23,262 bases of DNA from a virus. Below the pieces are notes generated by a model. The model did no database searches, was not told the origin of the DNA, and saw only the letters and a list, made by a program, of their open reading frames with translations. This document shows, in pieces, positions 3,570-12,935 of the stretch; position 1 is the stretch's first letter; every line of letters starts with the position of its first letter. Both the position numbers and the translations under genes were made by a program. The stretch is taken from IMG/VR virus record IMGVR_UViG_3300043602_000232, positions 1 to 23,262 of that record. One strand, given 5' to 3'.

Positions 3570-3827
3570 TCAAATGCCCTCCAGGCCGTCGTTGAGTTCG
3601 ACGGCACCGCCGCCCATGCCGGTAAGCTGCTCGCCCTTGTAGACGAGCTTGCCCTTGGGCGGGTTGAGCAGGCGCCTGCGCTGGGCGAGGAGCTTCTCCA
3701 GCTCGCGCGCAGCACGCAGCAGCTTGCGCTGCCAGCGATCGATAGCTTCACCGTTGAGGGCGAGCTTGGTCTGGCGGGCTTCGACCTTCATTTCGGGGTG
3801 CTTGGGAACGATACGACGACGTTTCAT
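3570..3827 (-). CDS. Basic helical protein behind leader cassette copy 1
   Basis: An 85-residue, strongly basic protein. It starts MKRRRIVPKHPEMKVEAR and has a long probable helix from about residue 28 to 55, then a Gly-rich turn (TGMGGGAVEL) near the end. AGGAG lies seven bases before the ATG. It is the first gene after a promoter-leader cassette that is repeated upstream of the 4298-4555 gene, although the two proteins are not similar. The next ATG follows its stop after one base. High positive charge would suit nucleic-acid binding, but no domain is recognised. Confidence 0.7.
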   Translation of the reverse strand: MKRRRIVPKHPEMKVEARQTKLALNGEAIDRWQRKLLRAARELEKLLAQRRRLLNPPKGKLVYKGEQLTGMGGGAVELNDGLEGI

Positions 3828-3912
3828 TTTTAGGCTCCTGGGTTGAGGCCGCTTCAACGGCCCTGCATTTCGTATTCCTATTTGATATACGAGTTCAAAC
3901 AGGAAGTCAAGC
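3828..3912 (-). promoter_or_regulatory. Promoter-leader cassette, copy 1
   Basis: Read on the minus strand, it contains a -35 TTGACT (3910-3905), AT-rich TATATCA at -10 spacing, the dyad TCGTAT-N11-ATACGA (arms 3870-3875 and 3887-3892), the hairpin GGCCGTTGAAGCGGCC (3862-3847) and an AGGAG ribosome site. Across 3841-3912 it matches copy 2 (4569-4640) at 63 of 72 positions by eye, without gaps. The -35 overlaps the stop codon of the upstream gene. Confidence 0.65.
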
Positions 3913-4095
3913 GTCTTCTTCAGCTTCGTCGCGCTCTTGATCGAGGCGACCAAGATCCGCGATCGCCTGCTCTGGGGTGGCTCCCCAGCCACAATGGCCG
4001 TCTTCCTCATCGCCATCGTGCCAGGCGCACCAGTCCCAGCGCCGATCTGGGATCGGTGGGTAAACTTGTCTCAGGACGAGATCGCGCATTCTCAT
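3907..4095 (-). CDS. Small conserved hypothetical protein (62 aa)
   Basis: ATG at 4095-4093 overlaps the upstream TGA (TGATG). The protein has the block PPIPDRRWDWCAWHDGDEED, then GHCGWGATPEQAIADL (residues 33-48). That last block is a pattern I recognise from phage proteins with a short beta hairpin followed by a helix, in which T-x2-QAIxDL closes the fold. The last 12 residues are acidic. Its stop lies within the -35 of leader cassette copy 1, so transcription from above may read into the cassette. Function unknown. Confidence 0.7.
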   Translation of the reverse strand: MRMRDLVLRQVYPPIPDRRWDWCAWHDGDEEDGHCGWGATPEQAIADLGRLDQERDEAEEDA

Positions 4096-4301
4096 CACGA
4101 CACCGGGAGCAGATTGGCGGGGTGGAACTTGCGCACCTTGTCGCTGCGGTCCATCCGAACGTGGATGTGCTTGGCGCCGATCTTGATGACGGTGCCGTAG
4201 ACATCGCCCATCATGAAGCAATCCATTGCTGGGTGCGCCTTGACGCGCTGGCCCTCGAAGAACGAACGGCGCAGCAGCGTGGTCTTGGAGAGCGGGATCA
4301 T
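4095..4301 (-). CDS. Small SH3/KOW-like beta-barrel protein (68 aa)
   Basis: A 68-residue protein with the layout of a small beta barrel. A basic N-terminus (TTLLRRSFFEGQRVKAHP) is followed by GDVYGTVIKIGAKHIHVRM (about residues 32-50) and FHPANLLPV. The G-x-V-x-x-IG-x2-HI-V-V pattern with a closing HPANLL strand is typical of KOW/SH3-type folds in small phage proteins. Another protein here, 9799-9969, has a comparable layout. The start overlaps the TGA of the 4298-4555 gene (ATGA). It may bind nucleic acid or a partner, but that is inference from fold type only. Confidence 0.7.
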   Translation of the reverse strand: MIPLSKTTLLRRSFFEGQRVKAHPAMDCFMMGDVYGTVIKIGAKHIHVRMDRSDKVRKFHPANLLPVS

Positions 4302-4555
4302 GACACGCCCTCCGCCTTGAGAGTTGCTGCCCGGCGCGAGGCGTTCTCTTGGTTGATCGCGGTGTATTCCTGGCGAGTGATCTCGATCGCCGGAACAATC
4401 TCAGTGCCTTTTGCTGCATTGTAGGCGAGGCCTACTGCACTCGCCCATTGCGCGGCTTTCCAGCCAGGAGAATGGGCGTGGCTGTACTTGCGGCCGGCGG
4501 TCGATCGCGTGAACACCTGGCCGTTTGAGAAGGTCGCCTTGTAATAAGTGGTCAT
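4298..4555 (-). CDS. Hypothetical protein behind leader cassette copy 2 (85 aa)
   Basis: The first gene after promoter-leader cassette copy 2, with AGGA nine bases before the ATG. The 85-residue product begins with a short beta hairpin (YYKATFSNGQVFTRST) and continues with SHAHSPGWKAAQWA and a helix ending near AAKGTEIVPA. The first 20 residues read like a small strand-turn-strand module in which FSNGQVF forms the turn. No catalytic or membrane segment is seen. It heads a three-gene unit ending at 3907. Confidence 0.7.
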   Translation of the reverse strand: MTTYYKATFSNGQVFTRSTAGRKYSHAHSPGWKAAQWASAVGLAYNAAKGTEIVPAIEITRQEYTAINQENASRRAATLKAEGVS

Positions 4556-4640
4556 TTTTCAGTTTCCTGGTTGGGGCCGCTTCAACGGCCTTGCATCTCG
4601 TATGCCCATCTGATATACGAACTCAAATAGGAAGTCAAGC
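4556..4640 (-). promoter_or_regulatory. Promoter-leader cassette, copy 2, shared with the divergent regulator gene
   Basis: On the minus strand it has TTGACT (4638-4633), TATATCAG at -10 spacing, the dyad TCGTAT-N11-ATACGA (4598-4603 and 4615-4620), the hairpin GGCCGTTGAAGCGGCC (4590-4575) and an AGGA ribosome site. It differs from copy 1 at nine of the 72 core positions. The dyad and hairpin stems are unchanged, and most differences fall between the conserved elements. The dyad also overlaps a plus-strand promoter for the regulator gene. Confidence 0.65.
4591..4619 (+). promoter_or_regulatory. Candidate promoter for the ribbon-helix-helix gene
   Basis: TTGCAT (4591-4596), a 17-base spacer and TATACG (4614-4619) point rightward toward the 4668 start. 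The -10 overlaps the right arm of the TCGTAT/ATACGA dyad. A protein bound to the dyad would therefore cover both this promoter and the opposing leftward one. Copy 1 has CTGCAT at the same place and no rightward gene. Confidence 0.4.
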
Positions 4641-4667
4641 AGACGAATTCAAAAAGGAACCAGGACA

Positions 4668-4886
4668 ATGCCAAGCGGCGGAGCAAGAGAGAAGTCCGGA
4701 CCGGAGAAACGGTTCGAGGAGCGCATCATGATCAAGCTTTCGACCAAGCTGTTGGGGGCGCTCGACGAGATCACCCGCGAGGGCGAGACCCGCAGCGAGG
4801 TGATCCGCCGCGCCCTTGAGCGCGAAGTGACACGTTGCCTCAAGATCCACAGTAAAGCTGGCGGCAGGACGTCAGCGCACGTATAA
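4668..4886 (+). CDS. Ribbon-helix-helix (CopG/MetJ-type) DNA-binding regulator
   Basis: A 72-residue protein whose core from about residue 20 reads MIKLSTKLLGALDEIT then TRSEVIRRALERE. That is the beta strand, helix A, and S-E-V-I-R-x-A-L helix B pattern of ribbon-helix-helix repressors. The strand residues of a dimer would contact operator DNA. The first 20 residues and the C-terminal tail are poor in predicted structure. AAGGA nine bases before ATG 4668 supports the long start, and the internal ATG at residue 21 is an alternative. No toxin gene is adjacent, so a simple repressor is more likely than an antitoxin. It diverges from leader cassette copy 2. Confidence 0.75.
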   Translation: MPSGGAREKSGPEKRFEERIMIKLSTKLLGALDEITREGETRSEVIRRALEREVTRCLKIHSKAGGRTSAHV

Positions 4887-12719: not shown

Positions 12720-12935
12720 GTGGCAATTCGAAATCATAGTCCGGGCCTTAAGCTCGCATTGAAGGCGCTCGAAGGCGGCCACGCCGAACTGGCACGGCAG
12801 CTCAAGACCACGCCGCAAGCGATTTACCAATGGGTCGACATCCCGTTTAAGCGGGTACTCGACGTTGAGCGCATCACCGGGATCGACCGCGAAAAACTGC
12901 GCCCCGATATCTTCCGCCGGCGGAGAGTCTCATGA
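12720..12935 (+). CDS. YdaS/Cro-type helix-turn-helix regulator
   Basis: GTG 12720 has GGAGG ten bases upstream. The 71-residue product has a helix-turn-helix: ALKALEGGHAELARQLKTTP (residues 13-32) with recognition helix QAIYQWVDIPFKRV, then LDVERITGIDREKLRPDIF (46-64). The ITGI-x-R-x-KLRPDIF ending is typical of the YdaS/Cro-like family of phage regulators. It is the first rightward gene after the divergent control region and lies just right of the palindrome, so it is probably the Cro-like or repressor protein of that switch. ATGA overlap links it to the methyltransferase. There is no second repressor in the window. Confidence 0.85.
   Translation: MAIRNHSPGLKLALKALEGGHAELARQLKTTPQAIYQWVDIPFKRVLDVERITGIDREKLRPDIFRRRRVS

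Follow-up and report, generated by a model that had tools for sequence, protein, structure and literature searches.

Two similar elements in a 23-kb virus fragment (the window, meaning the whole stretch of DNA analysed here) probably belong to a phage-wide family of promoter-leader cassettes, in which a shared promoter box and an mRNA hairpin would control scattered small genes. All phages that carry these cassettes are uncultured and belong to one group, in which about ten similar gene front ends are scattered, as if many small genes had been placed under one shared module. Start-associated repeats are described from several actinobacteriophage clusters, without a known role. The present family separates the parts naturally into full cassettes, hairpin-only leaders, two promoter types and a covarying stem, so the role of such repeats becomes directly testable. 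The cassette is also a marker that ties together fragments of this uncultured group.

A preliminary description of the window had reported a duplicated element with a -35 site, a dyad, a hairpin and a ribosome site, and all of these parts were found again in both copies. The direct repeat (3824-3912 and 4552-4640) is identical at 74 of 89 positions overall and at 63 of 72 positions in its core, and the sense strand of both copies is the minus strand. The covariance model matches copy 1 at 3825-3869 (50.2 bits, E 4e-16) and copy 2 at 4553-4597 (51.4 bits, E 2e-16). Hairpin, ribosome site and ATG occur together twice in the window against 0.025 expected by chance, and six times in the record L031 against none expected. 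The parts of the two copies are listed here; G001 is a related contig of 72,469 bases.

3825..3912, minus: cassette copy 1 (promoter block, leader hairpin, ribosome site, ATG), from the direct repeat; predicted to drive gene 3570-3827
4553..4640, minus: cassette copy 2, from the direct repeat; predicted to drive gene 4298-4555
3905..3910, minus: -35-like TTGACT of copy 1, from sequence
4633..4638, minus: -35-like TTGACT of copy 2, from sequence
3882..3899, minus: A-type box TTTGAACTCGTATATCAA of copy 1, from a pattern search in eight records
4610..4627, minus: A-type box TTTGAGTTCGTATATCAG of copy 2, from the pattern search, 3 mismatches
3870..3892, no strand: dyad TCGTAT-N11-ATACGA of copy 1, exact; one mismatch in G001
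4598..4620, no strand: dyad TCGTAT-N11-ATACGA of copy 2, exact; one mismatch in G001
3847..3862, minus: leader hairpin GGCCG-UUGAAG-CGGCC of copy 1, from covariation over 22 leaders and folding
4575..4590, minus: leader hairpin GGCCG-UUGAAG-CGGCC of copy 2, from covariation and folding (z -2.3)
3835..3839, minus: Shine-Dalgarno AGGAG of copy 1 (within CCCAGGAGCC); CAGGA invariant in the leader alignment
4564..4568, minus: Shine-Dalgarno AGGAA of copy 2; CAGGA invariant in the leader alignment

The two copies precede different and unrelated genes, as had been proposed: each gene encodes an 85-amino-acid protein, and blastp finds no relation between the two. Copy 2 probably also drives two ORFs behind its first gene. 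It is indeed divergent from an RHH gene, whose product passes the Pfam gathering score for RHH_1 (E 2.7e-5, 24.4 bits against 20.5); no solved structures related to this protein by sequence were found. Copy 1, unlike copy 2, has no divergent gene.

3570..3827, minus: gene predicted to be driven by copy 1, 85 aa, function not assigned; 96% identical in G001
4298..4555, minus: gene predicted to be driven by copy 2, 85 aa, function not assigned; 87% identical in G001
4095..4301, minus: second ORF behind copy 2, overlapping the first, from a phrog match (phrog_5546); absent between the copies in G001
4668..4886, plus: RHH_1 (CopG-family) regulator gene, 72 aa, divergent from copy 2 (PF01402)
4591..4619, plus: possible RHH promoter TTGCAT-N17-TATACG over the copy-2 dyad, from sequence
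4644..4653, minus: extra TTTGAATTCG box between copy 2 and the RHH start, from sequence comparison; absent from G001
12720..12935, plus: YdaS/Cro-like regulator (PF15943 E 4e-13, P22_Cro E 2e-8)

One viral relative each was found for the RHH gene and the copy-2 gene, both in G001 (94% and 87% protein identity), where both cassettes lie at the same place as in the window. Two further contigs match parts of the window at 99.96-99.97% identity, and the pattern of hairpin plus ribosome site revealed another four contigs that belong to the same phage group (G002-G005). Blastn searches of annotated phage records with the locus or the cassette gave no match. G001 and the other cassette contigs are close relatives, and copies across the six contigs are not fully independent. 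A rhizobial-type host is only a guess, based on a 34% polymerase match to a Rhizobium phage. As a separate observation, the DNA polymerase match in G001 (25185-27404) reads through one TGA codon, which may be a sequencing error, a pseudogene or recoding.

The preliminary description had proposed a small regulon instead of a chance repeat. The analysis supports this and shows it to be an understatement: the covariance model finds strong hairpin leaders not only in the window (two) but also in G001 (nine), G002 (two), G003 (four), G004 (seven) and G005 (four), with weaker ones in the last two. G001 carries both window-type copies and seven more leaders, all on one strand; these further copies, found with a relaxed hairpin pattern, have different stems and the same loop. 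The leaders share a common build, in which a stem with the loop UUGAAG (or AUGAAG) is followed by CAGGA. Every strong leader precedes an ATG, and about 29-37 nt separate loop and ATG. CAGGA is invariant in an alignment of 22 distinct leaders, with the ribosome-site consensus CCAGGAGAC.

Does the hairpin act as RNA? Across the 22 distinct leaders, 94.7% of stem cells are paired, and three pairs have changed on both sides (10 such cells), one position being GC, CG or UA and the next GC or AU. None of 500 shuffles did as well and slid controls fell far lower; the copies are related, so this count is not a probability, and the double changes are the direct evidence. Folding z-scores of single leaders are modest (-0.4 to -2.3), and Rfam gave no match at gathering score in the window. 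The covariation argues that the hairpin acts at the RNA level. Leaders that lack the promoter block point the same way. They are of three kinds: one lies at 13.7 kb in G001, another at 41.8 kb in G001 and, as orthologues, in G003 and G004, and the third, which is weaker, in G005. They keep the hairpin and the ribosome site and sit directly behind the stop codon of another gene, which argues that the hairpin works in mRNA and not solely in DNA. One hairpin-only leader of G001 lies between the copy-1 gene and a DUF2786 gene; the same junction in the window lacks a leader, with almost no gap between stop and start codon.

Outside this group, the hairpin and ribosome-site pattern gave 48 matches in 84,980 genomes, in a scatter over many phyla that chance can explain. 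Scored with the model, the highest of these pre-selected matches (33.6 bits) is an Arthrobacter site, which we rejected as it has no ATG at the expected place. A search of plasmid records gave one match, before glgX in a Sinorhizobium plasmid; it lacks the hairpin and was put down to chance.

Upstream of the hairpin, most copies carry TTGAC or a variant and then TTTGAAC or a variant, with a spacing that varies by two bases between copies. The -35-like site of promoter-bearing copies is kept as TTGACT, TTGCAT, TTGCAA or TTGACA. Two types can be told apart by what follows. The A type, which continues as CGTATATCA, is made up of the two copies of the window, their orthologues in G001 and a copy that precedes another gene and is present in G001, G002 and G004. 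The B type continues as CTAGGCATAC and accounts for most of the promoter blocks outside the window. The B-type 17-mer TTTGAACCTAGGCATAC has 19 matches among 2.9 million viral contigs, all 19 in these phages, and no near-matches with 1-3 mismatches were found in their records. Since it is invariant between paralogue flanks that are only 47-70% identical, it is under selection. In the A-type box of copy 1, the part that recurs in the B-type 17-mer is TTTGAAC, and the presumed -10 is TATCAA. The exact A-type pattern has no match in the viral contigs because the relatives differ by a base. A degenerate form has 80, of which four have an upstream TTG and a downstream ribosome site; all four are cassettes of these phages, and the remaining 76 are background.

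In G004, a strong terminator-like stem with a T-run stands immediately ahead of four of the six B-type cassettes and about 150 bases upstream of a fifth, which suggests that many cassette genes form transcription units of their own. Two B copies, one in G001 and one in G004, have another sequence downstream where the UUGAAG hairpin would be. The B-type blocks at L031 3238 and L025 306 (minus) are followed by GAGGGCGCCGGATGGTCCGG, not by that hairpin; in L031 this sequence is partly tandem-duplicated. A B-type cassette contig, L029 (3300043496_000256), comes from the same sample as L022 (3300043496_000253), a near-identical copy of the window; the two may be parts of one phage.

Which protein acts on the promoter block? 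It had been proposed that the RHH protein binds TCGTAT-N11-ATACGA. An RHH regulon of this kind, with the protein bound at both copies and repressing both genes and itself, like p576 Reg on EGeRS2 promoters, is possible but doubtful. The RHH gene is directly divergent from copy 2 in both the window phage and G001, and the dyad overlaps presumed -10 boxes on both strands. Its inner part, GTAT-N11-ATAC, is kept in seven A-type copies, the left half overlapping the presumed -10, and p576 offers a precedent of RHH-controlled repeated promoters with inverted repeats in the 5' leader (PMC8708921). Against this, the search of relatives recovered the hairpin and the promoter block, but the dyad came back with one arm mismatch in each G001 copy, and arm changes are no rarer there than in the rest of the element. 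The window holds 86 perfect 6-bp dyads with spacers of 8-14 (3.7 per kb); with such dyads this common, the dyad alone is not significant, and its presence in both window copies follows from the duplication. The B-type copies lack it altogether. The RHH gene also has no match in G002-G005, to which we give little weight since these records are fragments without the homologous region (and without the polymerase region). The comparison does not support assigning the RHH protein to this dyad. RHH control of copy 2 is nonetheless reasonable, given the inner GTAT-N11-ATAC of A-type copies and a divergent promoter kept in both phages; for the family as a whole such control is not established. That divergent promoter, TTGCAT-N17-TATACG, is plausible: G001 has it too in copy 2, and in copy 1 of both phages it is degraded. 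The cassette promoters on the minus strand have poor -10 boxes. The window boxes TATCAA and TATCAG are rejected by a strict sigma-70 scan, and the Sinorhizobium promoter consensus CTTGAC-N17-CTATAT (PMC2573895) fits the cassette -35 better than its -10.

Rather unlikely, in our judgement, is that TTTGAAC is a common operator for another phage regulator such as the YdaS/Cro-like protein. Apart from the TTG of the -35, no other sequence of the promoter block is common to A and B types, the B-type 17-mer is invariant, and the window does encode a Cro-type regulator, but nothing links that protein to the box, and no box is seen upstream of its own gene. We consider it improbable that a phage factor recognises the hairpin with its near-invariant loop, which would make a two-layer regulon with one protein on the promoter box and a second factor on the mRNA leader of those same genes. 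The chance is smaller again that the block serves a phage-encoded RNA polymerase or sigma factor without any repressor. A long, invariant, asymmetric 17-mer found only at gene starts in one phage group does resemble a dedicated promoter; however, the TTGAC -35 and the A/T-rich upstream tract suggest host polymerase, and a search for single-subunit RNA polymerase in G000, G001, G002 and G004 gave no match, a search without a positive control in which the control genomes also gave no signal. Least credible are neutral repeats kept alike by recombination, mainly for the exchange of gene units. Gene content between cassettes does vary among the phages, yet compensatory stem changes and an invariant 17-mer amid divergent flanks require selection.

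In the reading that we favour, the family itself, the location and strand of its copies, the covariation, the invariant 17-mer and the hairpin-only leaders are observed, and promoter activity, transcription start, regulator and effect on mRNA are inferred. A full cassette would consist of a housekeeping-type promoter with a TTGAC -35, often with an A/T-rich tract upstream; a common TTTGAAC box within that promoter, to which a phage regulator probably binds; and a short leader RNA whose strong stem with a UUGAAG loop stands a few bases ahead of a strong Shine-Dalgarno. The promoter part would most likely switch scattered small accessory genes on or off together. On the mRNA, the hairpin may shield the 5' end or isolate the ribosome site, and so could set the translation level of each gene independently of its coding sequence.

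How does this family relate to known systems? Cluster K mycobacteriophages have Start Associated Sequences (SAS), 13-bp sequences at the ribosome site, and extended SAS (ESAS), pairs of 17-bp inverted repeats upstream of the SAS (PMC3203893); among Microbacterium phages, SAS/ESAS occur in Cluster EF and 18-bp inverted repeats in Cluster EG (PMC7302621). Like these, the cassettes stand directly before start codons, around the ribosome site, in many conserved copies; the genes behind them are unrelated, and only some copies have an additional part upstream. Unlike them, they have an unrelated sequence and probably unrelated hosts, their upstream part is promoter-like and their hairpin is backed by covariation. 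The cassette consensus fits neither SAS consensus, GGGATAGGAGCCC of Cluster K or GGGAAAGGACCCC of Cluster EF, and the paired repeats of Cluster K ESAS are absent, the cassette 17-mer being a single asymmetric box.

The EGeRS2 regions of plasmid p576 and other clade II pLS20-family plasmids are repeated promoters with an RHH regulator, and the leader inverted repeats of p576 are thought to prolong RNA life (PMC8708921). There too, a single mobile element carries several similar regions of promoter and leader inverted repeat, one of which has an RHH gene as its neighbour. The p576 operators, however, are direct repeats (TTATCCCnnTTATCCC) upstream of the -35, whereas the cassette RHH operator is only a candidate dyad, and the p576 RHH gene lies behind a copy, not divergent from one as here, where the copies are phage-wide. 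By layout the cassette family is of the same kind as SAS/ESAS and EGeRS2; by sequence it belongs to neither.

The stoperators of Cluster A mycobacteriophages, mentioned in PMC4351075, are asymmetric short phage repeats oriented with transcription. Cassette repeats are likewise short, asymmetric and transcription-oriented; unlike stoperators, they occur only at gene fronts and are joined to a leader hairpin.

Some smaller features of the window concern its control regions. TTGAC and TTTGAAC lie about 12 bases apart (3905-3910 with 3893-3899, and 4633-4638 with 4621-4627; 10 in G005) and together make an imperfect direct repeat, which could be a regulator site over the -35. The extra TTTGAATTCG box at 4644-4653 is the third such box and adjoins the RHH ribosome site. 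The YdaS/Cro-like gene starts a rightward operon and faces a leftward gene block; its locus is probably another control point.

The cassettes also show genes gained and lost as units between them. At 3907-4301 the window has phrog_5546 and a 61-aa ORF between its copies, both extra with respect to G001 and best read as gene gain or loss between cassettes. In G001, the TTTGAAC box of copy 1 lies 15 bases past the copy-2 gene.
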